From Albula goreensis (taxonomy: Eukaryota; Chordata; Actinopteri; Albuliformes; Albulidae), in assembly GCA_022829145.1 (NCBI GenBank), contig CM040750.1, forward strand, positions 3,973,001 through 4,037,000: DNA of 64,000 nucleotides, read 5' to 3'. Positions 36,285-64,000 of the stretch are shown here, piece after piece. The translations under genes were made by a program, and so were the position numbers. The notes under the pieces were generated by a model. The model had not been told where the DNA came from. It did not search any database and saw only the letters and a list, made by a program, of their open reading frames with translations. The stretch's first letter is position 1. Each line of letters opens with the position of its first letter.

Positions 36285-36299
36285 GAGAGCAAGTGGGGG
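36285..36299 (+). other. Copia polypurine tract
   Basis: GAGAGCAAGTGGGGG abuts the 3' LTR, in the position required for plus-strand priming. Confidence 0.8.
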
Positions 36300-36585: not shown

Positions 36586-36590
36586 CACGA

Positions 36591-36755: not shown

Positions 36756-36774
36756 GTCCATACATTGCATGACC

Positions 36775-39372: not shown

Positions 39373-39547
39373 GAGACTGACAGTGGATGTCAGTACAGGC
39401 CAACGAAGGCAAATGTGTGTACGGATGCAAGACTCCAGTTTCCAAGCTTGTAGGACCTCAGGAAACTTAGTTTTGTGTTTTGCTTTCTAACATTGTCATG
39501 TATTGATGATTTTTCATTCTTGGAGTTGCAAAACTTCAGGTCTCCAT
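39373..39547 (-). repeat. Diverged satellite fragment, minus orientation
   Basis: GTGTACGGATGCAAGACTCC and TTTGTGTTTTGCTTTCTAAC match the minus-oriented monomers at 37525-38920. Orientation flips to plus directly after it, near 39547. Confidence 0.7.
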
Positions 39548-39687
39548 TGTTCACTTTTCTTGAATGCTTTCAACACACATGCAGTTTCTTAGGTCTGCCA
39601 AGCACATTTCAGCACACACTGTTAGACTGAAGATTCAGTCACTGTGAGAGTTCTTTTCATAGCAGAGAGCTGAACTGCTCTCAGAAT
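39548..39687 (+). repeat. Diverged satellite monomer, plus orientation, split by hAT
   Basis: TTCTTGAATGCTTTCAACAC and AGATTCAGTCACTGTGAGAG are clear monomer motifs in array orientation. The monomer is interrupted at CTCAGAAT and resumes at 41129. Confidence 0.8.
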
Positions 39688-41128
39688 CAGTGGCGGCTGC
39701 TGGTCTTTGAAAGAGGGGAAGCTCATTGTCGGCTTACATCATAAAATTTGTCAGTTTATTTATACATAAATTCTGCCCTCCGTACCTTTTCAAGAAAATG
39801 GTCTGTGACCCTATCATGTTTCTGTGAACTCCCTGTAATTCCCCTTGTTGGATGATTCACTACTCTCATCATGCCCCCTAAATTGAAGCTCCTGCCGGCC
39901 AAGCAAGGAAGTCACATCAATAAGGCGGTTTAGGAAGGCCCTGTATTGTTTGACTGTTTCATAATGTTTTGCCTCTTGAATGCAAGCACCTTCATTAACT
40001 GCATGTTAAACCCTGACCCTGCCTAGGCAACTTAACCTTGCACTCACATGTTCATTGTTCTTTTCATGTCTTTAATATGCTTGGTCAAAGTTAGACAGAT
40101 CCCCAAAACCCAATTTTGACCAGACAAGACATCCCTGAGATGGTTTCATCAAGAGGCATGGCCAACAGTACATTTTCTTTGTACTGTACATTGTACAGTA
40201 CATTGACAACACAGCCCTTCCAGTCAGCCAGCTAACTTTGTCATACCAGGAGAGCTGAAAAGACTTGTTACTTTTCCCTACTTTTTGCACCAAATCAATC
40301 TCAGGTGTTGATCTGCCCTGCTGTTTAATTCTAAGTTTCTCCTTGTAAGGAAGACTATCAAATGGCTTCGCCAAAATCAGGTCGACAATATTAGCATTGT
40401 CTGCCATCGTGTGCACCTTGCTAGCTAGCTAGTTCACTCCGACCTAGCCAACAGTATGACTGATTGAACGATATTAAACTCTAACAAGGAAATGTTGAAA
40501 TTATGTTAAACTGAAACAAGGAAATACTATGTGTGTTTTATTTGCAGTGTAAGAAATGAACAAGTAATTTCGCCATGCAAATACCAACAAATTGCTTGTA
40601 GTTTGTCTTTCCACTTCACTTCAAGTGACGGTGTATATCTCAAAACAGCTGTCAATCAAAACGGGATTCAGCCTTTCGACTGATCCTCCAATCATCATGC
40701 GGAAGCTCAGCGTCCAGGCCAGCCGAGGCCCACCCACAGCTCCATTCACTCCCAGAGACGCTGAGCGTCCGGGGGCGGGACAAAATCATGGCATTTATCC
40801 AATTACCGTAGAGTTTCGAGGCAATGAAAAAAACTGTTCCATGCAGTCCCATAGAAGCGCATGGATGCTCAGCGTCTACGGGCAAATGCATTGACCATAG
40901 ACTGTATAAAAAAACGGCGCTATGGGAATTTATGAGAAGTTAACAACATCGAGTCAGTCGATTTGTAATAAGTAGCTGATTCTGAACGAACTCGTCTTCG
41001 AGATGAACGTGTTCTAACGCATTTGTAGTCAATGAAATGTTAACACAACCGTACATATTTCACCATTTAATTTTTGACATTTTAGGGGAAGCTGAGCTTC
41101 CCTTGCAGTCTTAGAGAAATCGCCTCTG
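39688..41128 (-). mobile_element. hAT transposon, deletion derivative, in a satellite monomer
   Basis: The ends CAGTGGCG and (reverse complement) CAGAGGCG are short inverted termini. The 8-bp duplication CTCAGAAT flanks them (39680-39687 and 41129-41136). At 1441 bp it keeps only an N-terminal transposase fragment on the minus strand. Related GGGGAAGCTC motifs lie near both ends. Confidence 0.9.
40072..40407 (-). pseudogene. hAT transposase N-terminal (TTF-type zinc finger) fragment
   Basis: ATG at 40407 on the minus strand gives MADNANIVDLILAKPFDSLP, then QGRSTPEIDLVQ, SFQLSWYDKVSWLTG and MYCWPCLLMK. This is the TTF-type zinc-finger start of fish hAT transposases, often annotated as ZMYM1- or TTF-like proteins. 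It stops after SNFDQAY at about 111 residues, where full-length proteins run to several hundred. The catalytic hAT domain is absent, so this could at most bind DNA. Confidence 0.8.
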
Positions 41129-41919
41129 CTCAGAATGAACCTACATGTGTACCTTACACTTTCACGGGCTTAAACGCAGACCTGAAGTGTTGAAAGTAAC
41201 AGAATGAAAAATGATCAATACATGACAATGTTAGAAAGCAAAACACAAAACTAAGTTTACGAATGTCCTACCAGCTTGGAAACTGTAATTTTGTATCCGT
41301 ACACACATTTGCATTAGTTGGCGTGTACTGTCAGTGAAAATGTTTTCCTTCTCTTACTTTAACTTTGTTGGCACCCTTAACACATGCACAGCACAGGTGC
41401 GAGTGAACGTGGTTCCAAAGCACCTTACAAACACACGTGTCATATCGCGTTTGAAACAACATTACTTTTCATCGGCTTAATGTTTGTCATCATACAGACT
41501 GGGAAGTGTATGAAGAAGCAGAAACTGAAAAAGTTCACTTTTGTTGAATACTTTACACACGCATGTCGTTTCTTAGGTGTTGGCGAGGTCCAATTCAGCA
41601 TACACTGTTGGACAGAAGATTCAGTCACTGTGAGAGTTCTTTCCATTGCAGGGAACTGTACTGCTCTCAGAATGAACCTTCAAGTGTACCTTACACTTCC
41701 ACGGGCCTAAACGGAGATGTGAAGTGTTGAATGTCCCAGAATGAAAAATCATTACTACATGACATTGTTACTGAACCAAACACAAAACTAAGTTTTCTTA
41801 GTCCCAACAAGCTTTGAAACTTGGATCTTGCATCCGTACACACTTTTGCATTTGTTGGAGTGTATTGACAGTGAAAACGTTTTCCTTCACTCACTTTAAG
41901 TTTTTTGGCTTTCTTAACT
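41129..41919 (+). repeat. Diverged edge monomers of the satellite array
   Basis: Plus-oriented monomers with many substitutions relative to the core. The anchor motif CATGnACAGCACAGG is at 41383 and its diverged form at 41920, so the register (537 bp) already equals that of the array. Confidence 0.85.
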
Positions 41920-44900
41920 CATGTAAGGCACAGGGGCGAATGAAAGTATTTCATGAGCACCTTAGAAACTCACAAGTCCCATATCGCGTTTTCAACAACA
42001 TTTCATTTCATCAGTGAAATGTTTGTCATCGCACAGATTGGGAAGTGTACGATGAAGCAGAAACTGAAAATGTTGACTTTTGTTTAATGCTTTACTTTCT
42101 TAAGTCTTGGCGAGGTACAATCCAGCGTATACTGTCAGAGTAAAGATTCAGTCACTGTGAGAGTTCTTTTCATTGCAGACAGCTGTACTGCTCTCACAAT
42201 GAAGAGAAACATGAACCTTACACTGGCACTGGCCAAGAAGGAAAACTGAAGTGTTGCAAGTCCAGGAATGAGAAATCATTTATACCTGACTTTGTTTGTG
42301 AGCCAAACACAAAACTAAGTTTTCTTAGTCAAACAAGCTTGGAAACTTGGATCTTGCATCCGTATGCACTTTTGCAGTTGTTGGAGTGTACTGACAGTGA
42401 AAACGTTTTCCTTCACTCACTTTAAGTTTTTTGGCTTTCTTCACTCATGTACAGCACAGGAGCGAATGAACGTGTTTCATGCGCACCTTAGAAACTCGCA
42501 AGTGCCATATCGCGTTTAGAACAACATTTCGTTTCATCGGTGTTACGTTTGTCACCGCACAGACTGGAAAGTGTACGATGAAGCAGAAACTGAAAATGTT
42601 GACTTTTGTTGAATGCTTTACAACACGCATGTACTTTCTTAAGTCTTGGCGAGGTGCGATCCAGCGTATACTGTCAGAGTAAAGATTCAGTCACTGTGAG
42701 AGTTCTTTTCATTGCAGAGAGCTGTACTGCTCTCACAATGAAGAGAAACATGAACCTTACACTGGCACTGGCCAAGAATGAAAACTGAAGTGTTGCAAGT
42801 CCAGGAATGAGAAATCATTTATACCCTAGTTTGTTTGTGAGCCAAACACAAAACTAAGTTTTCTTAGTCAAACAAGGTTGGAAACTTGGATCTTGCATCC
42901 GTATGCACTATTGCAGTTGTACTGACAGGAAAAATGTTTTCCTTCACTCACTTAAGTTTTTTGGCTTTCTTAACTCATGTACAGCACAGGAGCGAATGAA
43001 CGTGTTTCATGCGCACCTTAATATCTCGCAAGTGCCATATCGCGTTTAGAACAACATTTCGTTTCATCGGTGTTATGTTTGTCACCGCACAGACTCGAAA
43101 AGGTATGATGAAGCAGAAACTGAACATGTTGACTTTTGTTGAATGCTTTACAACACGCTTGTACTTTCTTAAGTCTTTGCGAGGTGCGATCCAGCGAATA
43201 CTGTCAGAGTAAAGATTCAGTCACTGTGAGAGTTCTTTTCATTGCAGAGAGCTGTACTACTCTCACAACGAAGAGAAACATGAACCTTACACTGGCACTG
43301 ATCAAGAAGGAAAACTGAAGTGTTGCAAGTCCAGGAATGACAAATCATTTATACCTGACTTTGTTTGTGAGCCAAACACAAAACTAAGTTTTCTTAGTCA
43401 AACAAGCTTGGAAACTTGGATCTTGCATACATATGCACTTTTGCAGTTGTTGGAGTGTACTGACAGTGAAAACGTTTTCTTTCACTCACTTAAGTTTTTT
43501 GGCTTTCTTAACTCATGTACAGCACAGGAGCGAATGAACGTGTTTCATGCGCACCTTAGAAACTCGCAAGTGCCATATCGCGTTTAGAAGAACATTTCGT
43601 TTCATCGGTGTTATGTTTGTCACCGCACAGACTGGAAAAGGTACGATGAAGCAGAAACTGAAAATGTTGACTTTTGTTGAATGCTTTACACACGCATGTA
43701 CTTTCTTAAGTCTTTGCGAGGTGCGATCCAGCGTATACTGTCAGAGTAAAAATTCAGTCACTGTGAGAGTTCTTTTCATTGCAGAGAGCTGTACTGCTCT
43801 CACAATGAAGAGAAACATGAACCTTACACTGGCACTGGCCAAGAAGGAAAACTGAAGTGTTGCAAGTCCAGGAATGACAAATCATTTATACCTGACTTTG
43901 TTTGTGAGCCAAACACAAAACTAAGTTTTCTTAGTCAAACAAGCTTGGAAACTTGGATCTTGCATCCATATGCACTTTTGCAGTTGTTGGAGTGTACTGA
44001 CAGTAAAAATGTTTTCCTTCACTCACTTTAAGTTTTTTGGCTTTCTTAACTCATGTACAGCACAGGAGCGAATGAACGTGTTTCATGCGCACCTTAGAAA
44101 CTCGCAAGTGCCATATCGCGTTTAGAACAACATTTCGTTTCATCGGTGTTATGTTTGTCACCGCACAGACTGGAAAAGTGTACGATGAAGCAGAAACTGA
44201 AAATGTTGACTTTTGTTGAATGCTTTACAACACGCATGTACTTTCTTAAGTCTTGGCGAGGTGCGATCCAGCGTATACTGTCAGAGTAAAGATTCAGTCA
44301 CTGTGAGAGTTCTTTTCATTGCAGAGAGCTGTACTGCTCTCACAATGAAGAGAAACATGAACCTTCACTGGCACTGGCCAAGAAGGAAAACTGAAGTGTT
44401 GCAAGTCCAGGAATGAGAAATCATTTATACCTGAGTTTGTTTGTGAGCCAAACACAAAACTAAGTTTTCTTAGTCAAACAAGCTTGGAAACTTGGATCTT
44501 GCATCCATATGCACTTTTGCAGTTGTTGGAGTGTACTGACAGTAAAAACGTTTTCTTTCACTCACTTTAAGTTTTTTGGCTTTCTTAACTCATGTACAGC
44601 ACAGGAGCGAATGAATGTGTTTCATGCGCACCTTAGAAACTCGCAAGTGCCATATCGCGTTTAGAACAACATTTCGTTTCATCGGTGTTATGTTTGTCAC
44701 CGCACAGACTGGAAAAGGTACGATGAAGCAGAAACTGAAAATGTTGACTTTTGTTGAATGCTTTACACACGCATGTACTTTCTTAAGTCTTTGCGAGGTG
44801 CGATCCAGCGTATACTGTCAGAGTAAAGATTCAGTCACTGTGAGAGTTCTTTTCATTGCAGAGAGCTGTACTGCTCTCACAATGAAGAGAAACATGAACC

Positions 44901-45661
44901 TTACACTGGCACTGGCCAAGAAGAAAACTGAAGTGTTGCAAGTCCAGGAATGAGAAATCATTTATACCTGACTTTGTTTGTGAGCCAAACACAAAACTAA
45001 GTTTTCTTAGTCAAACAAGCTTGAAACTTGGATCTTGCATCCATATGCACTTTGCAGTTGTTGGAGTGTACTGACAGTGAAAACGTTTTCTTTCACTCAC
45101 TTTAAGTTTTTGGCTTTCTTAACTCATGTACAGCACAGGAGCGAATGAACGTGTTTCATGCGCACCTTAGAAACTCGCAAGTGCCATATCGCGTTTAGAA
45201 CAACATTTCGTTTCATCGGTGTTATGTTTGTCACCGACAGACTGGAAAAGGTACGATGAAGCAGAAACTGAAAATGTTGACTTTTGTTCAATGCTTTACA
45301 ACACGCATGTACTTTCTTAAGTCTTTGCGAGGTGCGATCCAGCGAATACTGTCAGAGTAAAGATTCAGTCACTGTGAGAGTTCTTTTCATTGCAGAGAGC
45401 TGTACTGCTCTCACAATGAAGAGAAACATGAACCTTACACTGGCACTGGCCAAGAAGGAAAACTGAAGTGTTGCAAGTCCAGGAATGAGAAATCATTTAT
45501 ACCTGAGTTTGATTGTGAGCCAAACACAAAACTAAGTTTTCTTAGTCAAACAAGCTTGAAACTTGGATCTTGCATCCATATGCACTTTTGCAGTTGTTGG
45601 AGTGTACTGACAGTAAAAATGTTTTCCTTCACTCACTTTAGGTTTTTTGGCTTTCTTATCT

Positions 45662-47271
45662 CATGTACAGCACAGGAGCGAATGAACGTGTTTCATGCGC
45701 ACCTTAGAAACTCGCAAATGCCATATCGCGTTTAGAACAACATTTCGTTTCATCGGTGTTATGTTTGTCACCGCACAGACTGGAAAGTGTACGATGAAGC
45801 AGAAACTGAAAATGTTGACTTTTGTTGAATGCTTTACAACACGCATGTACTTTCTTAAGTTTTGCGAGGTGCGATCCAGCGTATACTGTCAGAGTAAAGA
45901 TTCAGTCACTGTGAGAGTTCTTTTCATTGCAGAGAGCTGTACTGCTCTCACAATGAAGAGAAACATGAACCTTCCACTGGCACTGGCCAAGAAGGAAAAC
46001 TGAAGTGTTGCAAGTCCAGGAATGAGAAATCATTTATACCTAGTTTGTTTGTGAGCCAAACACAAAACTAAGTTTTCTTAGTCAAACAAGCTTGGAAACT
46101 TGAATCTTGCATCCAAATGCACTTTTGCAGTTGTTGCAGTGTACTGACAGTAAAAAATGTTTTCCTTCACTCACTTTAAGTTTTTTGGCTTTCTTAACTC
46201 ATGTACAGCACAGGAGCGAATGAATGTGTTTCATGCGCACCTTAGAAACTCGCAAGTGCCATATCGCGTTTAGAACAACATTTCGTTTCATCGGTGTTAT
46301 GTTTGTCACCGCACAGACTGGAGAAGGTACGATGAAGCAGAAACTGAAAATGTTGACTTTTGTTGAATGCTTTACAACACGCATGTACTTTCTTAAGTCT
46401 TTGCGAGGTGCGATCCAGCGAAAACTGTCAGAGTAAAGATTCAGTCACTGTGAGAGTTCTTTTCATTTCAGAGAGGTGTACTGCTCTCACAATGAAGAGA
46501 AACATGAACCTTACACTGGCACTGGCCAAGAATGAAAACTGAAGTGTTGCAAGTCCAGGAATGAGAAATCATTTATACCTGAGTTTGTTTGTGAGCCAAA
46601 CACAAAACTAAGTATTCTTAGTCAAACAAGCTTGGAAACTTGATCTTGCATCCATATGCACTTTTGCAGTTGTTGGAGTGTACTGACAGGAAAATGTTTT
46701 ACTTCAATCACTTAAGTTTTTTGGCTTTCTTAACTCATGTACAGCACAGGAGCGAATGAACGTGTTTCATGCGCACCTTAGAAACTCGCAAGTGCCATAT
46801 CGCGTTTAGAACAACATTTCGTTTCATCGGTGTTCTGTTTGTCACTGACAGACTGGAAAAGGTACGATGAAGCAGAAACTGAAAATGTTGACTTTTGTTG
46901 AATGCTTTACAACACGCATGTACTTTCTTAAGTCTTTGCGAGGTGCGATCCAGCGTACTGTCAGAGTAAAGATTCAGTCACTGTGAGAGTTCTTTTCATT
47001 GCAGAGAGCTGTACTGCTCTCACAATGAAGAGAAACATGAACCTTACACTGGCACTGGCCAAGAAGGAAAACTGAAGTGTTGCAAGTCCAGGAATGACAA
47101 ATCATTTATACCTGACTTTGTTTGTGAGCCAAACACAAAACTAAGTTTTCTTAGTCAAACAAGCTTGGAAACTTGGATCTTGCATCCATATGCACTTTTG
47201 CAGTTGTTGGAGTGTGCTGACAGTGAAAACGTTTTCCTTCACTCACTTTAGGTTTTTTGGCTTTCTTAACT
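45662..47271 (+). repeat. Satellite higher-order unit (early K-E-F trimer)
   Basis: Three consecutive monomers with the diagnostic variants K (AACCTTCCACTGG), E (GAATGAATGTG, CTGGAGAAGG, GCGAAAACTG, CATTTCAGAGAGGTG) and F (GTGTTCTGTTTGTCACTGAC). 1610 bp. The F monomer lacks the AAGTGTCATATCG variant seen in later copies. Confidence 0.7.
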
Positions 47272-50200
47272 CATGTACAGCACAGGAGCGAATGAACGTG
47301 TTTCATGCGCACCTTAGAAACTCGCAAGTGCCATATCGCGTTTAGAACAACATTTCGTTTCATCGGTGTTATGTTTGTCACCGCACAGACTGGAAAGTGT
47401 ACGATGAAGCAGAAACTGAAAATGTTGACTTTTGTTGAATGCTTTACAACACGCATGTACTTTCTTAAGTCTTTGCGAGGTGCGATCCAGCGTATACTGT
47501 CAGAGTAAAGATTCAGTCACTGTGAGAGTTCTTTTCATTGCAGAGAACTGTACTGCTCTCACAATGAAGAGAAACATGAACCTTACACTGGCACTGGCCA
47601 AGAAGGAAAACTGAAGTGTTGCAAGTCCAGGAATGAGAAATCATTTATACCTGAGTTTGATTGTGAGCCAAACACAAAACTAAGTTTTCTTAGTCAAACA
47701 AGCTTGGAAACTTGGATCTTGCATCCATATGCACTTTTGCAGTTGTTGGAGTGTACTGACAGTAAAAATGTTTTCCTTCACTCACTTTAAAGTTTTTTGG
47801 CTTTCTTATCTCATGTACAGCACAGGAGCGAATGAACGTGTTTCATGCGCACCTTAGAAACTCGCAAATGCCATATCGCGTTTAGAACAACATTTCGTTT
47901 CATCGGTGTTATGTTTGTCACCGCACAGACTGGAAAGTGTACGATGAAGCAGAAACTGAAAATGTTGACTTTTGTTGAATGCTTTACAACACGCATGTAC
48001 TTTCTTAAGTCTTTGCGAGGTGTGATCCAGCGTATACTGTCAGAGTAAAGATTCAGTCACTGTGAGAGTTCTTTTCATTGCAGAGAGCTGTACTGCTTTC
48101 ACAATGAAGAGAAACATGAACCTTACACTGGCACTGGCCAAGAAGGAAAACTGAAGTGTTGCAAGTCCAGGAATGAGAAATCATTTATACCTAGTTTGTT
48201 TGTGAGCCAAACACAAAACTAAGTTTTCTTAGTCAAACAAGCTTGGAAACTTGGATCTTGCATCCATATGCACTTTTGCAGTTGTTGGAGTGACTGGAGT
48301 AAAATGTTTTCCTTCACTCACTTTAAGTTTTTGGCTTTCTTAACTCATGTACAGCACAGGAGCGAATGAACGTGTTTCATGCGCACCTTAGAAACTCACG
48401 CAAGTGCCATATCGCGTTTAGAACAACATTTCGTTTCATCGGTGTTATGTTTGTCACCGCACAGACTGGAAAGTGTACGATGAAGCAGAAACTGAAAATG
48501 TTGACTTTTGTTGAATGCTTTACAACACGCATGTACTTTCTTAAGTCTTTGCGAGGTGCGATCCAGCGTATACTGTCAGAGTAAAGATTCAGTCACTGTG
48601 AGAGTTCTTTTCATTGCAGAGAGCTGTACTGCTCTCACAATGAAGAGAAACATGAACCTTACACTGGCACTGGCCAAGAAGGAAAACTGAAGTGTTGCAA
48701 GTCCAGGAATGAGAAATCATTTATACCTGACTTTGTTTGTGAGCCAAACACAAAACTAAGTTTTCTTAGTCAAACAAGCTTGGAAACTTGGATCTTGCAT
48801 CCGTATGCACTTTTGCAGTTGTTGGAGTGTACTGACAGTAAAAATGTTTTCCTTCACTCACTTTAAGTTTTTTGGCTTTCTTAACTCATGTACAGCACAG
48901 GAGCGAATGAACGTGTTTCATGCGCACCTTAGAAACTCGCAAGTGCCATATCGCGTTTAGAACAACATTTCGTTTCATCGGTGTTATGTTTGTCACCGCA
49001 CAGACTGGAAAAGGTACGATGAAGCAGAAACTGAAAATGTTGACTTTTGTTGAATGCTTTACACACGCATGTACTTTCTTAAGTCTTTGCGAGGTGCGAT
49101 CCAGCGTATACTGTCAGAGTAAAGATTCAGTCACTGTGAGAGTTCTTTTCATTGCAGAGAGCTGTACTGCTCTCACAATGAAGAGAAACATGAACCTTAC
49201 ACTGGCACTGGCCAAGAAGGAAAACTGAAGTGTTGCAAGTCCAGGAATGAGAAATCATTTATACCTGAGTTTGTTTGTGAGCCAAACACAAAACTAAGTT
49301 TTCTTAGTCAAACAAGCTTGGAAACTTGGATCTTGCATCCATATGCACTTTTGCAGTTGTTGGAGTGTACTGACAGTGAAAACGTTTTCTTTCACTCACT
49401 TTAAGTTTTTTGGCTTTCTTAACTCATGTACAGCACAGGAGCGAATGAACGTGTTTCATGCGCACCTTAGAAACTCGCAAGTGCCATATCGCGTTTAGAA
49501 CAACATTTCGTTTCATCGGTGTTATGTTTGTCACCGCACAGACTGGAAAAGGTACGATGAAGCAGAAACTGAAAATGTTGACTTTTGTTGAATGCTTTAC
49601 ACACGCATGTACTTTCTTAAGTCTTTGCGAGGTGCGATCCAGCGAAAACTGTCAGAGTAAAGATTCAGTCACTGTGAGAGTTCTTTTCATTTCAGAGAGC
49701 TGTACTGCTCTCACAATGAAGAGAAACATGAACCTTACACTGGCACTGGCCAAGAATGAAAACTGAAGTGTTGCAAGTCCAGGAATGAGAAATCATTTAT
49801 ACCTGAGTTTGATTGTGAGCCAAACACAAAACTAAGTTTTCTTAGTCAAACAAGCTTGGAAACTTGGATCTTGCATCCGTATGCACTTTTGCAGTTGTTG
49901 GAGTGTACTGACAGTAAAAATGTTTTCCTTCAATCACTTAAGTTTTTGGCTTTCTTAACTCATGTACAGCACAGGAGCGAATGAACGTGTTTCATGCGCA
50001 CCTTAGAAACTCGCAAGTGCCATATCGCGTTTAGAACAACATTTCGTTTCATCGGTGTTATGTTTGTCACCGCACAGACTGGAAAAGGTACGATGAAGCA
50101 GAAACTGAAAATGTTGACTTTTGTTCAATGCTTTACAACACGCATGTACTTTCTTAAGTCTTTGCGAGGTGCGATCCAGCGAATACTGTCAGAGTAAAGA

Positions 50201-51576
50201 TTCAGTCACTGTGAGAGTTCTTTTCATTGCAGAGAGCTGTACTGCTCTCACAATGAAGAGAAACATGAACCTTACACTGGCACTGGCCAAGAATGAAAAC
50301 TGAAGTGTTGCAAGTCCAGGAATGAGAAATCATTTATACCTGAGTTTGATTGTGAGCCAAACACAAAACTAAGTTTTCTTAGTCAAACAAGCTTGGAAAC
50401 TTGGATCTTGCATCCGTATGCACTTTTGCAGTTGTTGGAGTGTACTGACAGGATAAAATGTTTTCCTTCACTCACTTTAAGTTTTTGGCTTTCTTAACTC
50501 ATGTACAGCACAGGAGCGAATGAACGTGTTTCATGCGCACCTTAGAAACTCGCAAGTGCCATATCGCGTTTAGAACAACATTTCGTTTCATCGGTGTTAT
50601 GTTTGTCACCGCACAGACTGGAAAAGGTACGATGAAGCAGAAACTGAAAATGTTGACTTTTGTTGAATGCTTTACAACACGCATGTACTTTCTTAAGTCT
50701 TTGCGAGGTGCGATCCAGCGAATACTGTCAGAGTAAAGATTCAGTCACTGTGAGAGTTCTTTTCATTGCAGAGAGCTGTACTGCTCTCACAATGAAGAGA
50801 AACATGAACCTTACACTGGCACTGGCCAAGAAGGAAAACTGAAGTGTTGCAAGTCCAGGAATGACAAATCATTTATACCTGACTTTGTTTGTGAGCCAAA
50901 CACAAAACTAAGTTTTCTTAGTCAAACAAGCTTGGAAACTTGGATCTTGCATCCATATGCACTTTTGCAGTTGTTGGAGTGTGCTGACAGTAAAAATGTT
51001 TTCCTTCACTCACTTTAGGTTTTTGGCTTTCTTATCTCATGTACAGCACAGGAGCGAATGAACGTGTTTCATGCGCACCTTAGAAACTCGCAAGTGCCAT
51101 ATCGCGTTTAGAACAACATTTCGTTTCATCGGTGTTATGTTTGTCACCGCACAGACTGGAAAGTGTACGATGAAGCAGAAACTGAAAATGTTGACTTTTG
51201 TTGAATGCTTTACAACACGCATGTACTTTCTTAAGTCTTTGCGAGGTGCGATCCAGCGTATACTGTCAGAGTAAAGATTCAGTCACTGTGAGAGTTCTTT
51301 TCATTGCAGAGAGCTGTACTGCTCTCACAATGAAGAGAAACATGAACCTTACACTGGCACTGGCCAAGAAGGAAAACTGAAGTGTTGCAAGTCCAGGAAT
51401 GAGAAATCATTTATCCCTGAGTTTGTTTGTGAGCCAAACACAAAACTAAGTTTTCTTAGTCAAACAAGCTTGGAAACTTGAATCTTGCATCCATATGCAC
51501 TTTTGCAGTTGTTGGAGTGTGCTGACAGTAAAAACGTTTTCCTTCACTCACTTTAGGTTTTTTGGCTTTCTTAACT

Positions 51577-53180
51577 CATGTACAGCACAGGAGCGAATGA
51601 ACGTGTTTCATGCGCACCTTAGAAACTCGCAAGTGCCATATCGCGTTTAGAACAACATTTCGTTTCATCGGTGTTATGTTTGTCACCGCACAGACTGGAA
51701 AGGTACGATGAAGCAGAAACTGAAAATGTTGACTTTTGTTGAATGCTTTACAACACGCATGTACTTTCTTAAGTCTTTGCGAGGTGCGATCCAGCGATAC
51801 TGTCAGTAAAGATTCAGTCACTGTGAGAGTTCTTTTCATTGCAGAGAGCTGTACTGCTCTCACAATGAAGAGAAACATGAACCTTCCACTGGCACTGGCC
51901 AAGAAGAAAACTGAAGTGTTGCAAGTCCAGGAATGAGAAATCATTTATACCTAGTTTGTTTGTGAGCCAAACACAAAACTAAGTATTCTTAGTCAAACAA
52001 GCTTGGAAACTTGAATCTTGCATCCATATGCACTTTTGCAGTTGTTGCAGTGTACTGTCAGTAAAAACGTTTTCCTTCACTCACTTTAAGTTTTTTGGCT
52101 TTCTTAACTCATGTACAGCACAGGAGCGAATGAATGTGTTTCATGCGCACCTTAGAAACTCGCAAGTGCCATATCGCGTTTAGAACAACATTTCGTTTCA
52201 TCGGTGTTCTGTTTGTCACCGACACAGACTGGAGAAGGTACGATGAAGCAGAAACTGAAAATGTTGACTTTTGTTGAATGCTTTACACACGCATGTACTT
52301 TCTTAAGTCTTTGCGAGGTGCGATCCAGCGAAAACTGTCAGAGTAAAGATTCAGTCACTGTGAGAGTTCTTTTCATTTCAGAGAGGTGTACTGCTCTCAC
52401 AATGAAGAGAAACATGAACCTTACACTGGCACTGGCCAAGAATGAAAACTGAAGTGTTGCAAGTCCAGGAATGAGAAATCATTTATACCTGAGTTTGTTT
52501 GTGAGCCAAACACAAAACTAAGTATTCTTAGTCAAACAAGCTTGGAAACTTTGATCTTGCATCCGTATGCACTATTGCAGTTGTACTGACAGGAAAAATG
52601 TTTTACTTCAATCACTTAAGTTTTTTGGCTTTCTTAACTCATGTACAGCACAGGAGCGAATGAACGTGTTTCATGCGCACCTTAGAAACTCGCAAGTGTC
52701 ATATCGCGTTTAGAACAACATTTCGTTTCATCGGTGTTCTGTTTGTCACTGACACAGACTGGAAAAGGTACGATGAAGCAGAAACTGAAAATGTTGACTT
52801 TTGTTCAATGCTTTACAACACGCATGTACTTTCTTAAGTCTTTGCGAGGTGCGATCCAGCGAATACTGTCAGAGTAAAGATTCAGTCACTGTGAGAGTTC
52901 TTTTCATTGCAGAGAGCTGTACTGCTCTCACAATGAAGAGAAACATGAACCTTACACTGGCACTGGCCAAGAAGGAAAACTGAAGTGTTGCAAGTCCAGG
53001 AATGAGAAATCATTTATACCTGAGTTTGATTGTGAGCCAAACACAAAACTAAGTTTTCTTAGTCAAACAAGCTTGGAAACTTGGATCTTGCATCCGTATG
53101 CACTTTTGCAGTTGTTGGAGTGTGCTGACAGTAAAAATGTTTTCCTTCACTCACTTTAGGTTTTTTTGGCTTTCTTATCT
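51577..53180 (+). repeat. Satellite higher-order unit (K-E-F trimer)
   Basis: Monomers at 51577 (K-like, AACCTTCCACTGG), 52110 (E, all four markers) and 52640 (F, with AAGTGTCATATCG and TGTTCTGTTTGTCACTGAC). 1604 bp. Confidence 0.8.
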
Positions 53181-54784
53181 CATGTACAGCACAGGAGCGA
53201 ATGAACGTGTTTCATGCGCACCTTAGAAACTCGCAAGTGCCATATCGCGTTTAGAACAAACATTTCGTTTCATCGGTGTTATGTTTGTCACCGCACAGAC
53301 TGGAAAGTGTACGATGAAGCAGAAACTGAAAATGTTGACTTTTGTTGAATGCTTTACAACACGCATGTACTTTCTTAAGTTTTGGCGAGGTGCGATCCAG
53401 CGTATACTGTTAGAGTAAAGATTCAGTCACTGTGAGAGTTCTTTTCATTGCAGAGAGCTGTACTGCTCTCACAATGAAGAGAAACATGAACCTTCCACTG
53501 GCACTGGCCAAGAAGGAAAACTGAAGTGTTGCAAGTCCAGGAATGAGAAATCATTTATCCCTAGTTTGTTTGTGAGCCAAACACAAAACTAAGTATTCTT
53601 AGTCAAACAAGCTTGGAAACTTGAATCTTGCATCCATATGCACTTTTGCAGTTGTTGCAGTGTACTGTCAGTAAAAACGTTTTCCTTCACTCACTTTAAG
53701 TTTTTTGGCTTTCTTAACTCATGTACAGCACAGGAGCGAATGAATGTGTTTCATGCGCACCTTAGAAACTCGCAAGTGCCATATCGCGTTTAGAACAACA
53801 TTTCGTTTCATCGGTGTTATGTTTGTCACCGCACAGACTGGAGAAGGTACGATGAAGCAGAAACTGAAAATGTTGACTTTTGTTGAATGCTTTACACACG
53901 CATGTACTTTCTTAAGTCTTTGCGAGGTGCGATCCAGCGAAACTGTCAGAGTAAAGATTCAGTCACTGTGAGAGTTCTTTTCATTGCAGAGAGTGTACTG
54001 CTCTCACAATGAAGAGAAACATGAACCTTACACTGGCACTGGCCAAGAATGAAAACTGAAGTGTTGCAAGTCCAGGAATGAGAAATCATTTATACCCTAG
54101 TTTGTTTGTGAGCCAAACACAAAACTAAGTATTCTTAGTCAAACAAGCTTGGAAACTTTGATCTTGCATCCGTATGCACTATTGCAGTTGTACTGACAGG
54201 AAAAATGTTTTACTTCAATCACTTAAGTTTTTTGGCTTTCTTAACTCATGTACAGCACAGGAGCGAATGAACGTGTTTCATGCGCACCTTAGAAACTCGC
54301 AAGTGTCATATCGCGTTTAGAACAACATTTCGTTTCATCGGTGTTCTGTTTGTCACTGACCGACTGGAAAAGGTACGATGAAGCAGAAACTGAAAATGTT
54401 GACTTTTGTTCAATGCTTTACAACACGCATGTACTTTCTTAAGTCTTTGCGAGGTGCGATCCAGCGAATACTGTCAGAGTAAAGATTCAGTCACTGTGAG
54501 AGTTCTTTTCATTGCAGAGAGCTGTACTGCTCTCACAATGAAGAGAAACATGAACCTTACACTGGCACTGGCCAAGAAGGAAAACTGAAGTGTTGCAAGT
54601 CCAGGAATGAGAAATCATTTATACCTGACTTTGTTTGTGAGCCAAACACAAAACTAAGTTTTCTTAGTCAAACAAGCTTGGAAACTTGGATCTTGCATCC
54701 GTATGCACTTTTGCAGTTGTTGGAGTGTACTGACAGTAAAAATGTTTTCCTTCACTCACTTTAGGTTTTTTGGCTTTCTTACCT
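53181..54784 (+). repeat. Satellite higher-order unit (K-E-F trimer)
   Basis: Monomers at 53181 (K: TTAAGTTTTGGCGAGG, TACTGTTAGAG, TTTATCCCTAG), 53720 (E, with small deletions at two markers) and 54247 (F). 1604 bp, directly next to the preceding trimer. Confidence 0.8.
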
Positions 54785-55323
54785 CATGTACAGCACAGGA
54801 GCGAATGAACGTGTTTCATGCGCACCTTAGAAACTCGCAAGTGCCATATCGCGTTTAGAACAACATTTCGTTTCATCGGTGTTATGTTTGTCACCGCACA
54901 GACTGGAAAAGTGTACGATGAAGCAGAAACTGAAAATGTTGACTTTTGTTGAATGCTTTACAACACGCATGTACTTTCTTAAGTCTTTGCGAGGTGCGAT
55001 CCAGCGTATACTGTCAGAGTAAAAATTCAGTCACTGTGAGAGTTCTTTTCATTGCAGAGAGCTGTACTGCTCTCACAATGAAGAGAAACATGAACCTTAC
55101 ACTGGCACTGGCCAAGAAGGAAAACTGAAGTGTTGCAAGTCCAGGAATGACAAATCATTTATACCTGACTTTGTTTGTGAGCCAAACACAAAACTAAGTT
55201 TTCTTAGTCAAACAAGCTTGAAACTTGGATCTTGCATCCGTATGCACTTTTGCAGTTGTTGGAGTGTGCTGACAGTAAAAATGTTTTCCTTCACTCACTT
55301 TAGGTTTTTTGGCTTTCTTATCT

Positions 55324-56926
55324 CATGTACAGCACAGGAGCGAATGAACGTGTTTCATGCGCACCTTAGAAACTCGCAAGTGCCATATCGCGTTTAGAAC
55401 AACATTTCGTTTCATCGGTGTTATGTTTGTCACCGCACAGACTGGAAAGTGTACGATGAAGCAGAAACTGAAAATGTTGACTTTTGTTGAATGCTTTACA
55501 ACACGCATGTACTTTCTTAAGTTTTGGCGAGGTGCGATCCAGCGTATACTGTCAGAGTAAAGATTCAGTCACTGTGAGAGTTCTTTTCATTGCAGAGAGC
55601 TGTACTGCTCTCACAATGAAGAGAAACATGAACCTTCCACTGGCACTGGCCAAGAAGGAAAACTGAAGTGTTGCAAGTCCAGGAATGAGAAATCATTTAT
55701 CCCTAGTTTGTTTGTGAGCCAAACACAAAACTAAGTATTCTTAGTCAAACAAGCTTGGAAACTTGATCTTGCATCCATATGCACTTTTGCAGTTGTTGCA
55801 GTGTACTGTCAGTAAAAACGTTTTCCTTCACTCACTTTAAGTTTTTTGGCTTTCTTAACTCATGTACAGCACAGGAGCGAATGAATGTGTTTCATGCGCA
55901 CCTTAGAAACTCGCAAGTGCCATATCGCGTTTAGAACAACATTTCGTTTCATCGGTGTTATGTTTGTCACCGCACAGACTGGAAAAGGTACGATGAAGCA
56001 GAAACTGAAAATGTTGACTTTTGTTGAATGCTTTACAACACGCATGTACTTTCTTAAGTCTTTGCGAGGTGCGATCCAGCGAAAACTGTCAGAGTAAAGA
56101 TTCAGTCACTGTGAGAGTTCTTTTCATTTCAGAGAGGTGTACTGCTCTCACAATGAAGAGAAACATGAACCTTACACTGGCACTGGCCAAGAATGAAAAC
56201 TGAAGTGTTGCAAGTCCAGGAATGAGAAATCATTTATACCCTAGTTTGTTTGTGAGCCAAACACAAAACTAAGTATTCTTAGTCAAACAAGCTTGGAAAC
56301 TTTGATCTTGCATCCGTATGCACTATTGCAGTTGTACTGACAGGAAAAATGTTTTACTTCAATCACTTAAGTTTTTGGCTTTCTTAACTCATGTACAGCA
56401 CAGGAGCGAATGAACGTGTTTCATGCGCACCTTAGAAACTCGCAAGTGTCATATCGCGTTTAGAACAACATTTCGTTTCATCGGTGTTCTGTTTGTCACT
56501 GACCGACTGGAAAAGGTACGATGAAGCAGAAACTGAAAATGTTGACTTTTGTTCAATGCTTTACAACACGCATGTACTTTCTTAAGTCTTTGCGAGGTGC
56601 GATCCAGCGAATACTGTCAGAGTAAAGATTCAGTCACTGTGAGAGTTCTTTTCATTGCAGAGAGCTGTACTGCTCTCACAATGAAGAGAAACATGAACCT
56701 TACACTGGCACTGGCCAAGAAGGAAAACTGAAGTGTTGCAAGTCCAGGAATGAGAAATCATTTATACCTGAGTTTGATTGTGAGCCAAACACAAAACTAA
56801 GTTTTCTTAGTCAAACAAGCTTGAAACTTGGATCTTGCATCCGTATGCACTTTTGCAGTTGTTGGAGTGTACTGACAGTAAAAATGTTTTCCTTCACTCA
56901 CTTTAGGTTTTTTGGCTTTCTTAACT
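55324..56926 (+). repeat. Satellite higher-order unit (K-E-F trimer)
   Basis: Monomers at 55324 (K), 55861 (E, but CTGGAAAAGG) and 56390 (F). 1603 bp. One non-trimer monomer (54785) separates it from the preceding unit. Confidence 0.8.
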
Positions 56927-58535
56927 CATGTACAGCACAGGAGCGAATGAACGTGTTTCATGCGCACCTTAGAAACTCGCAAGTGCCATATCGCGTTTAG
57001 AACAACATTTCGTTTCATCGGTGTTATGTTTGTCACCGCACAGACTGGAAAGGTACGATGAAGCAGAAACTGAAAATGTTGACTTTTGTTGAATGCTTTA
57101 CAACACGCATGTACTTTCTTAAGTCTTTGGCGAGGTGCGATCCAGCGAATACTGTCAGAGTAAAGATTCAGTCACTGTGAGAGTTCTTTTCATTGCAGAG
57201 AGCTGTACTGCTCTCACAATGAAGAGAAACATGAACCTTCCACTGGCACTGGCCAAGAAGGAAAACTGAAGTGTTGCAAGTCCAGGAATGAGAAATCATT
57301 TATACCCTAGTTTGTTTGTGAGCCAAACACAAAACTAAGTATTCTTAGTCAAACAAGCTTGGAAACTTGATCTTGCATCCATATGCACTTTGCAGTTGTT
57401 GTGTACTGACAGGAAAAATGTTTTCTTCACTCACTTAAGTTTTTTGGCTTTCTTAACTCATGTACAGCACAGGAGCGAATGAACGTGTTTCATGCGCACC
57501 TTAGAAACTCGCAAGTGCCATATCGCGTTTAGAACAACATTTCGTTTCATCGGTGTTATGTTTGTCACCGACAGACTGGAAAAGGTACGATGAAGCAGAA
57601 ACTGAAAATGTTGACTTTTGTTCAATGCTTTACAACACGCATGTACTTTCTTAAGTCTTTGCGAGGTGCGATCCAGCGAATACTGTCAGAGTAAAGATTC
57701 AGTCACTGTGAGAGTTCTTTTCATTGCAGAGAGCTGTACTGCTCTCACAATGAAGAGAAACATGAACCTTACACTGGCACTGGCCAAGAAGGAAAACTGA
57801 AGTGTTGCAAGTCCAGGAATGAGAAATCATTTATACCTGACTTTGTTTGTGAGCCAAACACAAAACTAAGTTTTCTTAGTCAAACAAGCTTGAAACTTGG
57901 ATCTTGCATCCATATGCACTTTTGCAGTTGTTGGAGTGTACTGACAGTAAAAAATGTTTTCCTTCACTCACTTTAAGTTTTTTGGCTTTCTTAACTCATG
58001 TACAGCACAGGAGCGAATGAACGTGTTTCATGCGCACCTTAGAAACTCGCAAGTGCCATATCGCGTTTAGAACAACATTTCGTTTCATCGGTGTTATGTT
58101 TGTCACCGCACAGACTGGAAAAGGTACGATGAAGCAGAAACTGAAAATGTTGACTTTTGTTCAATGCTTTACAACACGCATGTACTTTCTTAAGTCTTTG
58201 CGAGGTGCGATCCAGCGAATACTGTCAGAGTAAAGATTCAGTCACTGTGAGAGTTCTTTTCATTGCAGAGAGCTGTACTGCTCTCACAATGAAGAGAAAC
58301 ATGAACCTTACACTGGCACTGGCCAAGAAGGAAAACTGAAGTGTTGCAAGTCCAGGAATGACAAATCATTTATACCTGAGTTTGTTTGTGAGCCAAACAC
58401 AAAACTAAGTTTTCTTAGTCAAACAAGCTTGGAAACTTGGATCTTGCATCCGTATGCACTTTTGCAGTTGTTGGAGTGTACTGACAGTAAAAATGTTTTC
58501 CTTCACTCACTTTAGGTTTTTTGGCTTTCTTATCT

Positions 58536-60140
58536 CATGTACAGCACAGGAGCGAATGAACGTGTTTCATGCGCACCTTAGAAACTCGCAAGTGCCATAT
58601 CGCGTTTAGAACAACATTTCGTTTCATCGGTGTTATGTTTGTCACCGCACAGACTGGAAAGTGTACGATGAAGCAGAAACTGAAAATGTTGACTTTTGTT
58701 GAATGCTTTACAACACGCATGTACTTTCTTAAGTTTTGGCGAGGTGCGATCCAGCGTATACTGTTAGAGTAAAGATTCAGTCACTGTGAGAGTTCTTTTC
58801 ATTGCAGAGAGCTGTACTGCTCTCACAATGAAGAGAAACATGAACCTTCCACTGGCACTGGCCAAGAAGGAAAACTGAAGTGTTGCAAGTCCAGGAATGA
58901 GAAATCATTTATCCCTAGTTTGTTTGTGAGCCAAACACAAAACTAAGTATTCTTAGTCAAACAAGCTTGGAAACTTGAATCTTGCATCCATATGCACTTT
59001 TGCAGTTGTTGCAGTGTACTGTCAGTAAAAACGTTTTCCTTCACTCACTTTAAGTTTTTTGGCTTTCTTAACTCATGTACAGCACAGGAGCGAATGAATG
59101 TGTTTCATGCGCACCTTAGAAACTCGCAAGTGCCATATCGCGTTTAGAACAACATTTCGTTTCATCGGTGTTATGTTTGTCACCGCACAGACTGGAGAAG
59201 GTACGATGAAGCAGAAACTGAAAATGTTGACTTTTGTTGAATGCTTTACACACGCATGTACTTTCTTAAGTCTTTGCGAGGTGCGATCCAGCGAAAACTG
59301 TCAGAGTAAAGATTCAGTCACTGTGAGAGTTCTTTTCATTTCAGAGAGGTGTACTGCTCTCACAATGAAGAGAAACATGAACCTTACACTGGCACTGGCC
59401 AAGAATGAAAACTGAAGTGTTGCAAGTCCAGGAATGAGAAATCATTTATACCCTAGTTTGTTTGTGAGCCAAACACAAAACTAAGTATTCTTAGTCAAAC
59501 AAGCTTGGAAACTTTGATCTTGCATCCGTATGCACTATTGCAGTTGTACTGACAGGAAAAATGTTTTACTTCAATCACTTAAGTTTTTTGGCTTTCTTAA
59601 CTCATGTACAGCACAGGAGCGAATGAACGTGTTTCATGCGCACCTTAGAAACTCGCAAGTGTCATATCGCGTTTAGAACAACATTTCGTTTCATCGGTGT
59701 TCTGTTTGTCACTGACCGACTGGAAAAGGTACGATGAAGCAGAAACTGAAAATGTTGACTTTTGTTCAATGCTTTACAACACGCATGTACTTTCTTAAGT
59801 CTTTGCGAGGTGCGATCCAGCGAATACTGTCAGAGTAAAGATTCAGTCACTGTGAGAGTTCTTTTCATTGCAGAGAGCTGTACTGCTCTCACAATGAAGA
59901 GAAACATGAACCTTACACTGGCACTGGCCAAGAAGGAAAACTGAAGTGTTGCAAGTCCAGGAATGAGAAATCATTTATACCTGAGTTTGATTGTGAGCCA
60001 AACACAAAACTAAGTTTTCTTAGTCAAACAAGCTTGGAAACTTGGATCTTGCATCCGTATGCACTTTTGCAGTTGTTGGAGTGTGCTGACAGTAAAAATG
60101 TTTTCCTTCACTCACTTTAGGTTTTTTGGCTTTCTTATCT
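58536..60140 (+). repeat. Satellite higher-order unit (K-E-F trimer)
   Basis: Monomers at 58536 (K with TACTGTTAGAG), 59074 (E, all markers) and 59602 (F). 1605 bp. It is followed by another K (60141) and an E-like hybrid (60678). Confidence 0.8.
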
Positions 60141-61754
60141 CATGTACAGCACAGGAGCGAATGAACGTGTTTCATGCGCACCTTAGAAACTCGCAAGTGC
60201 CATATCGCGTTTAGAACAACATTTCGTTTCATCGGTGTTATGTTTGTCACCGCACAGACTGGAAAGTGTACGATGAAGCAGAAACTGAAAATGTTGACTT
60301 TTGTTGAATGCTTTACAACACGCATGTACTTTCTTAAGTTTTGGCGAGGTGCGATCCAGCGTATACTGTTAGAGTAAAGATTCAGTCACTGTGAGAGTTC
60401 TTTTCATTGCAGAGAGCTGTACTGCTCTCACAATGAAGAGAAACATGAACCTTCCACTGGCACTGGCCAAGAAGGAAAACTGAAGTGTTGCAAGTCCAGG
60501 AATGAGAAATCATTTATCCCTAGTTTGTTTGTGAGCCAAACACAAAACTAAGTATTCTTAGTCAAACAAGCTTGAAACTTGAATCTTGCATCCATATGCA
60601 CTTTTGCAGTTGTTGCAGTGTTCTGTCAGTAAAAACGTTTTCCTTCACTCACTTTAAGTTTTTTGGCTTTCTTAACTCATGTACAGCACAGGAGCGAATG
60701 AATGTGTTTCATGCGCACCTTAGAAACTCGCAAGTGCCATATCGCGTTTAGAACAACATTTCGTTTCATCGGTGTTATGTTTGTCACCGCACAGACTGGA
60801 GAAGGTACGATGAAGCAGAAACTGAAAATGTTGACTTTTGTTGAATGCTTTACACACGCATGTACTTTCTTAAGTCTTTGCGAGGTGCGATCCAGCGAAT
60901 ACTGTCAGAGTAAAGATTCAGTCACTGTGAGAGTTCTTTTCATTGCAGAGAGCTGTACTGCTCTCACAATGAAGAGAAACATGAACCTTACACTGGCACT
61001 GGCCAAGAAGGAAAACTGAAGTGTTGCAAGTCCAGGAATGAGAAATCATTTATACCTGACTTTGTTTGTGAGCCAAACACAAAACTAAGTTTTCTTAGTC
61101 AAACAAGCTTGGAAACTTGGATCTTGCATCCATATGCACTTTTGCAGTTGTTGGAGTGTGCTGACAGTAAAAATGTTTTCCTTCACTCACTTTAGGTTTT
61201 TTGGCTTTCTTATCTCATGTACAGCACAGGAGCGAATGAACGTGTTTCATGCGCACCTTAGAAACTCGCAAGTGCCATATCGCGTTTAGAACAACATTTC
61301 GTTTCATCGGTGTTATGTTTGTCACCGCACAGACTGGAAAGTGTACGATGAAGCAGAAACTGAAAATGTTGACTTTTGTTGAATGCTTTACAACACGCAT
61401 GTACTTTCTTAAGTTTTGGCGAGGTGCGATCCAGCGTATACTGTCAGAGTAAAGATTCAGTCACTGTGAGAGTTCTTTTCATTGCAGAGAGCTGTACTGC
61501 TCTCACAATGAAGAGAAACATGAACCTTACACTGGCACTGGCCAAGAAGGAAAACTGAAGTGTTGCAAGTCCAGGAATGAGAAATCATTTATCCCTAGTT
61601 TGTTTGTGAGCCAAACACAAAACTAAGTATTCTTAGTCAAACAAGCTTGGAAACTTGAATCTTGCATCCATATGCACTTTTGCAGTTGTTGGAGTGTACT
61701 GACAATAAAAACGTTTTCCTTCACTCACTTGTAGTTTTTTGTGCTTTCTTAACT

Positions 61755-62238
61755 CATGTACAGCACAGGAGCAATGAAGCAGAAAAACTGAAAATTTAGT
61801 TGCTTTTGTTAATTTGTCACCGCACAGACTGGAAAGGTACAAGCAGAAACTGAAAATGTTGACTTTTGTTGAATGTCAACACGCATGTACTTTCTTAAGT
61901 CTTTGAGGTGCGATCCAGCGAATACTGTCAGAGTAAAGATTCAGTCACTGTGAGAGTTCTTTTCATTGCAGAGAGCTGTACTGCTCTCACAATGAAGAGA
62001 AACATGAACCTTACACTGGCACTGGCCAAGAATGAAAACTGAAGTGTTGCAAGTCCAGGAATGAGAAATCATTTATACCTGACTTTGTTTGTGAGCCAAA
62101 CACAAAACTAAGTTTTCTTAGTCAAACAAGCTTGAAACTTGGATCTTGCATCCGTATGCACTTTTGCAGTTGTTGGAGTGTACTGACAGTAAAAATGTTT
62201 TCCTTCACTCACTTTAAGTTTTTTGTGCTTTCTTAACT
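61755..62238 (+). repeat. Truncated, rearranged satellite monomer
   Basis: The only short step in the array (484 bp). Between about 61770 and 61880 the sequence loses the GTTTCATGCGCACC and TATCGCGTTTAG segments and repeats a CAGAAA-CTGAAAAT piece, then rejoins the normal register. Confidence 0.85.
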
Positions 62239-63759
62239 CATGTACAGCACAGGAGCGAATGAACGTGTTTCATGCGCACCTTAGAAACTCGCAAGTGCCA
62301 TATCGCGTTTAGAACAACATTTCGTTTCATCGGTGTTATGTTTGTCACCGCACAGACTGGAAAAGGTACGATGAAGCAGAAACTGAAAATGTTGACTTTT
62401 GTTGAATGCTTTACACACGCATGTACTTTCTTAAGTCTTTGCGAGGTGCGATCCAGCGAATACTGTCAGAGTAAAGATTCAGTCACTGTGAGAGTTCTTT
62501 TCATTGCAGAGAGCTGTACTGCTCTCACAATGAAGAGAAACATGAACCTTACACTGGCACTGGCCAAGAAGGAAAACTGAAGTGTTGCAAGTCCAGGAAT
62601 GAGAAATCATTTATACCTGACTTTGTTTGTGAGCCAAACACAAAACTAAGTTTTCTTAGTCAAACAAGCTTGGAAACTTGGATCTTGCATCCATATGCAC
62701 TTTTGCAGTTGTTGGAGTGTACTGACAGTGAAAACGTTTTCCTTCACTCACTTTAAGTTTTTTGGCTTTCTTAACTCATGTACAGCACAGGAGCGAATGA
62801 ACGTGTTTCATGCGCACCTTAGAAACTCGCAAGTGCCATATCGCGTTTAGAACAACATTTCGTTTCATCGGTGTTATGTTTGTCACCGCACAGACTGGAA
62901 AGTGTACGATGAAGCAGAAACTGAAAATGTTGACTTTTGTTGAATGCTTTACAACACGCATGTACTTTCTTAAGTTTTGGCGAGGTGCGATCCAGCGTAT
63001 ACTGTCAGAGTAAAGATTCAGTCACTGTGAGAGTTCTTTTCATTGCAGAGAGCTGTACTGCTCTCACAATGAAGAAAACATGAACCTTACACTGGCACTG
63101 GCCAAGAAGGAAAACTGAAGTGTTGCAAGTCCAGGAATGAGAAATCATTTATACCTGACTTTGTTTGTGAGCCAAACACAAAACTAAGTTTTCTTAGTCA
63201 AACAAGCTTGAAACTTGGATCTTGCATCCATATGCACTTTTGCAGTTGTTGGAGTGTACTGACAGTGAAAACGTTTTCTTTCACTCACTTTAAGTTTTTG
63301 GCTTTCTTAACTCATGTACAGCACAGGAGCGAATGAACGTGTTTCATGCGCACCTTAGAAACTCGCAAGTGCCATATCGCGTTTAGAACAACATTTCGTT
63401 TCATCGGTGTTATGTTTGTCACCGCACAGACTGGAAAGGTACGATGAAGCAGAAACTGAAAATGTTGACTTTTGTTGAATGCTTTACAACACGCATGTAC
63501 TTTCTTAAGTCTTTGCGAGGTGCGATCCAGCGAATACTGTCAGAGTAAAGATTCAGTCACTGTGAGAGTTCTTTTCATTGCAGAGAGCTGTACTGCTCTC
63601 ACAATGAAGAGAAACATGAACCTTACACTGGCACTGGCCAAGAAGGAAAACTGAAGTGTTGCAAGTCCAGGAATGAGAAATCATTTATACCTGACTTTGT
63701 TTGTGAGCCAAACACAAAACTAAGTTTTCTTAGTCAAACAAGCTTGGAAACTTGGATCT

Positions 63760-64000
63760 NNNNNNNNNNNNNNNNNNNNNNNNNNNNNNNNNNNNNNNNN
63801 NNNNNNNNNNNNNNNNNNNNNNNNNNNNNNNNNNNNNNNNNNNNNNNNNNNNNNNNNNNNNNNNNNNNNNNNNNNNNNNNNNNNNNNNNNNNNNNNNNNN
63901 NNNNNNNNNNNNNNNNNNNNNNNNNNNNNNNNNNNNNNNNNNNNNNNNNNNNNNNNNNNNNNNNNNNNNNNNNNNNNNNNNNNNNNNNNNNNNNNNNNNN
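63760..64000. other. Assembly gap (run of N)
   Basis: Unresolved bases directly after a satellite monomer. The gap falls where assembly commonly fails, inside a long near-identical tandem array. Confidence 1.

Follow-up and report, generated by a model that had tools for sequence, protein, structure and literature searches.

The window analysed here is a 64,000-nucleotide stretch of the Albula goreensis assembly (GCA_022829145.1, contig CM040750.1, positions 3,973,001 to 4,037,000, forward strand; this contig is called C10 below), and its right-hand third is occupied by a satellite array. Using a blast search with one 538-bp unit, we found 42 plus-strand units of ≈ 537 bp (m01 to m42), arranged head to tail without interruption over 22.4 kb and ended by a run of N (Table 1). 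No N lies within the array. Autocorrelation of the sequence reached its maximum at a lag of 538; Tandem Repeats Finder gave no call for the array in a run whose longest period was 500. Unit m39 aligned only to unit positions 95-538, and m42 is truncated by the N run. The mean pairwise identity of m04-m41 without m39 was 0.964 (666 pairs). The locus thus has the long head-to-tail arrangement of near-identical units that characterizes satellite DNA.

An earlier reading of the sequence alone had described forty anchors about 537 bp apart between 41920 and 63759. That interval holds 41 of the 42 units, 40 of them with a full 5' part, in agreement with that description. Its picture of a single-orientation array of more than 21 kb is correct for the young part, but decayed inverted units lie to the left and minus-strand units of the C10 type lie past the gap, perhaps in mis-oriented sequence.

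K-E-F trimers and block copying

Four ordered trimers of the linked unit variants K, E and F, of 1603-1605 bp as described in the sequence-only reading, were recovered; the starts given there lie 8 bases upstream of ours, which is a choice of phase. Units in the same register of different trimers were 0.990 identical on average (range 0.981-0.998, 18 pairs) and those in different registers 0.944 (range 0.932-0.957, 36 pairs), a descriptive comparison since the trimers were picked beforehand. When the order of units m03-m41 (without m39) was shuffled, the mean of the six best three-unit block matches was reached in none of 1000 trials. Shuffling of the K, E and F labels yielded three trimers in 0 of 200,000 trials; the script counted three trimers rather than four because m20 fell below its 88% cut, and the labels were derived from consensuses of the same monomers. 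Identity in register is therefore well above that between monomers, as in a higher-order repeat. Tandem multimers do not extend over most of the array, however: the trimers make up 12 of the 42 units.

The trimer period is local. Over m04-m41, units three apart were 0.968 identical and neighbours 0.962, but lags of 18 (0.968) and 24 (0.969) were as high as lag 3. Within m20-m38, identity was 0.965 at lag 3, 0.968 at lag 6 and 0.951 at lag 1. The difference between lags 3 and 1 was matched by 196 of 20,000 shuffles for m20-m38 and by 421 of 20,000 for m04-m38, and m04-m19 had no lag-3 excess (0.970 versus 0.972). The expectation that monomers three apart should resemble each other more than neighbours do is thus borne out in m20-m38 and not in m04-m19.

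A monomer tree (IQ-TREE, excluding m01, m02, m39 and m42) supported E and F as clusters, and K weakly. Ultrafast bootstrap (UFBoot) support was 95 for E, 100 for E together with m10, and 99 for F; the four K monomers alone did not form a split, and K with m36 and m38 did so at 68. The 8-bp deletion of E is present also in m03 at the array edge, which falls outside the E group. The earlier version of the trimer placed at 45662 corresponds to m09-m11, which have some of the alleles typical of K, E and F and are a partial forerunner. Genome-wide and with at most one mismatch, a marker word for E occurred at five places and one for F at four, all of them in the window array. The E word also matches m03, and the F word matches m11 at one mismatch and misses the F-type unit m22, which has more mismatches. 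One K word was not found in the fetched stretches of C10 beyond the gap; the genome-wide searches covered the E and F words.

To speak of an emerging higher-order repeat is generous. The four trimers span ≈ 10 kb, the E and F words are unique to this array at up to one mismatch, smaller repeated blocks exist on C21 and C7, and just two of the four trimers (m20-m22 and m23-m25) adjoin, the others coming after one and three other units. We conclude that K-E-F is the strongest case seen of a block-copying process found also beyond this array, and not an established higher-order array. The satellite and its local multimer are both real, and their kind is already known.

The trimers probably arose as follows. 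Where units pair out of step, unequal exchange and gene conversion would homogenize the array of each chromosome and occasionally duplicate several units together. K-E-F would be one such block, multiplied by at least three copying events, and the hybrid units m30 and m37 would be leftovers of out-of-register exchanges. We infer that the adjacent trimers of m20-m25, the spaced ones, the lone K unit m36 and the two hybrids together form the pattern that out-of-register exchange or conversion leaves behind. The earlier suggestion that unequal exchange amplified the trimer is supported, and hybrid units are what such exchange could leave. No function need be assumed for the trimers themselves.

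Blocks of two units recur in the fetched 8-10 kb stretches of contigs C21 and C7 (judged by eye from informative columns, with no separate test). On C1 (32984341-32985647), three successive units of 432-438 bp share the same ≈ 100-bp deletion (unit positions 110-209), a local amplification. Local block copying is thus not confined to the window array. A dimer periodicity on C21, hinted at by the spacing of listed places, was not retained: it was weak in the fetched 10 kb, where the difference between even and odd lags was reached by 144 of 5000 shuffles. In two C7 stretches, the corresponding counts were 4882 and 1733 of 5000; the minus-strand units of C10 had a count of 303 of 5000.

Table 1. 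Features of the window (window coordinates)
Feature	Position	Strand	Remarks
Very decayed unit pieces flanking the copia insertion	31900-32224, 36588-36676, 36771-37503	both	
Broken Ty1/copia element within decayed satellite	32225-36585	+	Outer end 36585 read from letters
Decayed inverted units	37527-39547	-	77-85% identical to consensus; broken by insertion 38924-39369
First plus-strand unit, part	39548-39687	+	Split from 41129-41390 by transposon
hAT-like insertion	39688-41128		8-bp target duplication CTCAGAAT at 39680 and 41129
Satellite array, 42 head-to-tail units of ≈ 537 bp	41391-63759	+	Last unit cut by N run
Edge units m01 and m02	41391-42453	+	83% (m01) and 92% (m02) identical to array consensus
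Partial forerunner m09-m11 (K-like, E-like, F-like start)	45670-47279	+	m10 joins E, UFBoot 100
K-E-F trimer 1 (m20-m22)	51585-53188	+	1604 bp
K-E-F trimer 2 (m23-m25)	53189-54792	+	1604 bp; adjoins trimer 1
K-E-F trimer 3 (m27-m29)	55332-56934	+	1603 bp
Hybrid unit m30	56935-57466	+	5' part K-like, 3' part E-like
K-E-F trimer 4 (m33-m35)	58544-60148	+	1605 bp
Lone K unit m36	60149-60685	+	Directly after trimer 4
Hybrid unit m37	60686-61223	+	5' part E-like, then B/F-like
Short unit m39	61763-62246	+	484 bp; internally rearranged
Scaffold gap	63760-64000		500 N in full (63760-64259)

Genomic placement and the centromere question

The assembly comprises 931.9 Mb, with 25 chromosome-sized contigs of 23.7-72.1 Mb (C1 is the largest); the next contig, C26, measures 0.75 Mb. 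A 26-mer from the core of the unit occurred 3,257 times at up to two mismatches (1755 on the plus and 1502 on the minus strand), while the reversed control gave no match; there were no exact matches to the 26-mer in the viral or the prokaryote collections. Assuming one 26-mer per 537 bp, the family amounts to ≈ 1.75 Mb, which is 0.19% of all assembled sequence. Positions were listed for 100 of the 3,257 places, and further places were sampled with variant patterns. The following distribution refers to the matches listed. The satellite was present on 16 of the 25 chromosome-sized contigs (C1, C2, C5, C7, C8, C10, C11, C12, C14, C16, C17, C18 and C20-C23), at one site per contig, and none of the 16 had places at both ends. 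On 12 of them the places lay within 1.2 Mb of one contig end; the sites of C8, C10 and C12 lay 3.3, 4.0 and 6.8 Mb from an end, and that of C1 at 32.95 of 72.1 Mb. C7 starts inside the array, and C18 and C20 each open with 60 bases that look, by eye, like unit sequence. Places on C60, C78, C82, C93, C102, C136, C180 and C194, which are outside the 25 largest contigs, are omitted from the locus count. Four further places (C1:1497008, C4:29785435, C18:26898041 and C22:25653370) were dropped as chance-like, since they depart from the unit at positions other than the varied ones.

The array carries alleles of its own chromosome. The consensus of 37 window units and that of 16 minus-strand units of C10 share their bases at unit positions 91, 102, 115, 126, 222, 228, 367 and 452, and at all eight they differ from the consensus of C7 (31 units) and C1 (9 units). 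The mean identity of the window units was 0.969 to the C10 minus-strand units and 0.917-0.931 to the units of C1 and C7. A motif search for old units returned three places, all on C10.

We consider it likely that a chromosome-specific array of the 537-bp satellite has its edge in the window, at a locus of (peri)centromeric type that is present on many, perhaps all, chromosomes. The sequence-only reading had raised a centromeric or pericentromeric family; its placement, at one site on each of the contigs above, supports this indirectly and falls short of proof. We infer from this placement a (peri)centromeric satellite in a mostly acrocentric karyotype, in which C1 would be metacentric or the product of a fusion. 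The array probably serves, or adjoins, the centromere. Several observations weigh against this reading. Nine of the 25 chromosome-sized contigs had no place among the matches listed, and C11, C12 and C23 had one each. The best match to a CENP-B box had two mismatches and was equalled in 600 of 1000 shuffles, no better than chance; the CENP-B box is common in mammals and not universal. Furthermore, a position near one end of most contigs would fit a subterminal satellite as well.

The last point leads to the alternative that the family is a subtelomeric or chromosome-end satellite, with the C1 site as the relic of an end-to-end fusion. The proximity to an end on three quarters of the contigs speaks for it, as does C1, which is 1.4 times as long as C2 and has an internal site. 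We nevertheless regard it as unlikely: no contig had listed places at both ends, the sites of C8, C10 and C12 lie megabases from an end, and acrocentric chromosomes whose assemblies stop at or near the centromere would give the same picture. That the order of the trimers is instead an artefact, produced when repeat contigs were wrongly joined or duplicated, would be suggested by the entry of the array into a 500-N gap, past which the sequence may be mis-oriented. Moreover, the private differences in m04-m41 without m39 amount to 22 indel columns and 31 substitutions, and 9 of the 22 private indels stand beside the same base, so some raw error is possible. The trimer copies differ by 0.2-1.9%, with shared substitutions, however; the array is free of N; and one shortened-homopolymer form of a core word occurs once genome-wide, which argues against frequent homopolymer error. 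This makes an artefact very improbable. Finally, a splice-acceptor-like stretch and 124-aa stop-to-stop frames (at 43213, 45361, 55023 and 56626) recur in the array, as they might if the units were exon-bearing or transcribed genes and not plain satellite. The one frame tested (56626-57000) had no Pfam match, shared indels of 8 bp and 1 bp set units apart, and the window gave neither a tRNA nor an Rfam match that reached the gathering score. We give a gene array almost no credence.

The likely (peri)centromeric satellite has counterparts elsewhere. Alpha satellite has a unit of ≈ 171 bp and forms higher-order arrays in human. The array described here resembles primate alpha satellite, as presented in passages of a preprint on the telomere-to-telomere marmoset assembly (PMC13041921), in its tandem units, chromosome-specific variants, local multimers and older edge units. 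Unlike alpha satellite, it has a 537-bp unit, a multimer in only four copies and no CENP-B box beyond chance; the likeness is one of organization. Among teleosts, a centromere-type satellite is described for medaka, in stretches of 20-345 kb and with monomer groups common to sets of chromosomes, which we liken to the family in the window (PMC5705604, in part). The passages in question do not describe a 537-bp unit, and this comparison, too, is by description and not by sequence. A word search of the literature turned up no title or opening of an abstract on a 537-538-bp fish satellite; it would overlook one published with a different length or name.

Within 32 kb beside a conserved gene, the locus offers a compact record of the evolution of a centromere-type satellite: remains of inverted units, inserted transposons, a steep gradient of age, chromosome-specific alleles, a forerunner, the block that probably descends from it in four copies, and out-of-register hybrid units. 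It could be used as a marker for the birth of a multimer across individuals of one species.

Strand switches and the sequence past the gap

We fetched C10:4037001-4057000 and C10:4107001-4123000 from beyond the gap. The first 20 kb past the gap held transposons (a copia element and a hAT C-terminal domain) and 1.4 minus-strand units at 4052266-4053017. C10:4107001-4116254 consists of satellite on the minus strand, has the C10 alleles and ends at a further 500 N; an additional minus-strand place lies at C10:4061962. All units seen between the two gaps (at C10:4036760 and C10:4116255) were thus on the minus strand. Flipping the sequence between the gaps would give a uniformly plus-strand young array, and we regard mis-orientation as somewhat more likely than a true dyad.

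Strand switches free of N were found at C1:32958747, on C2 at ≈ 58.04-58.09 kb, on C21 at ≈ 92.3 kb, and between the decayed and first plus-strand units of the window (39547/39548). The junctions of C2 and C21 are homologous, with 91.5% and 92.4% identity over ≈ 470 bases across the switch for two C21 copies. No match of this kind spans the switches of C1 and C10. A 25-base word from the C2/C21 junction was exact at five places (one on C2, one on C18 and three on C21); six more places with one mismatch are possibly ordinary units. C17 and C20 had listed places on both strands, possibly with intervening gaps. On C2, the switch lies within an inverted duplication around a small satellite array; the arms (52556-56232 and 61873-58189; 3.7 kb, 92.2% identical) include flanking DNA, so that the two flanks mirror each other. 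In C21:91001-97000, a 500-N gap is bordered on either side by this inversion junction, with the two copies facing opposite ways and 95% identical over 1.75 kb; the gap is possibly an assembly break at a palindrome.

These switches raise the idea that the centromeric arrays are macro-dyads, in which a plus-strand part is followed by a minus-strand part and the unit at the inversion site is diverged, conserved and has spread from chromosome to chromosome. According to PMC13081366, macro-dyads are documented only in Tribolium. As there, sub-arrays lie on opposite strands, with a diverged unit at the inversion site on C2 and C21, and a homologous junction recurs at more than one array. Unlike there, gap-free switches were seen at four loci only, that of C10 lies between decayed units, and the C2 arms are 92% alike. 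We think it quite unlikely that the arrays are generally organized in this way. If they were, they would form a vertebrate counterpart of the Tribolium organization, the orientation of the satellite and not its sequence would be the conserved feature of the locus, and the pattern would matter beyond this locus. Blocks on opposite strands are in themselves already known. Brachypodium centromeres have satellite blocks on opposite strands and, as here, retrotransposon insertions with less similar units nearby, in a plant with 156-157 bp units and mapped CENH3 (PMC10910784); inversions inside active macaque arrays are implied in parts of PMC13041921.

Array edge, transposons and neighbouring gene

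Identity to the array consensus rose over the first five units from 0.829 through 0.924, 0.961 and 0.967 to 0.989, which constitutes an age gradient. To their left, the strand switch is free of gaps and the older material is broken up by transposons. We take the insertion that splits the first plus-strand unit to be hAT-like from its 8-bp duplication and end letters; an open reading frame inside it (40072-40428) had no Pfam match. The insertion within the decayed inverted units has inverted ends. The Ty1/copia element has end repeats that are 95.8% identical over 264 aligned bases and a 5-bp duplication (CACGA), and its gag and pol are broken across several frames. A relative just past the gap is 96.6% identical to it over 3.4 kb and has an uninterrupted stop-to-stop frame of 970 aa.

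Exons of CUEDC2 were located at 20052-25332 in a search with the human protein. From the end of the gene it is ≈ 16 kb to the first full unit and 6.6 kb to the first decayed piece. The array had been placed less than 20 kb from a conserved gene pair. The distance holds for CUEDC2, the only gene of the pair to be established: human ACTR1A, tried as the second gene, gave no match. The remark that the surroundings are not an obvious heterochromatic block needs qualifying, since the nearer flank consists of decayed satellite and transposon insertions.

Some features of single units may be added. The 5' end of m39 appears scrambled by eye: a piece like unit positions 122-155 stands beside position 10, and position 95 onward follows. 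The array consensus contains a 35-bp near-palindrome at unit positions 255-289 (TTCATTGCAGAGAGC...GCTCTCACAATGAA), and it lies close to where the minus strand begins at the switches of C2 and C21. We do not claim special conservation for this palindrome: its identity was 0.87 in decayed copies, yet 7% of windows were equally good. Folded as single-stranded DNA, the unit at 48895-49432 was more stable than its shuffled versions (z of -3.6; 0 of 100). Lastly, CUEDC2 is flanked by inverted-facing copies of another element, at 12670-14790 and 28698-31596, which are 85-90% identical and contain internal repeats of 44-48 bp (TTTCGAAAC-type); the pair perhaps represents a fold-back-like transposon family.

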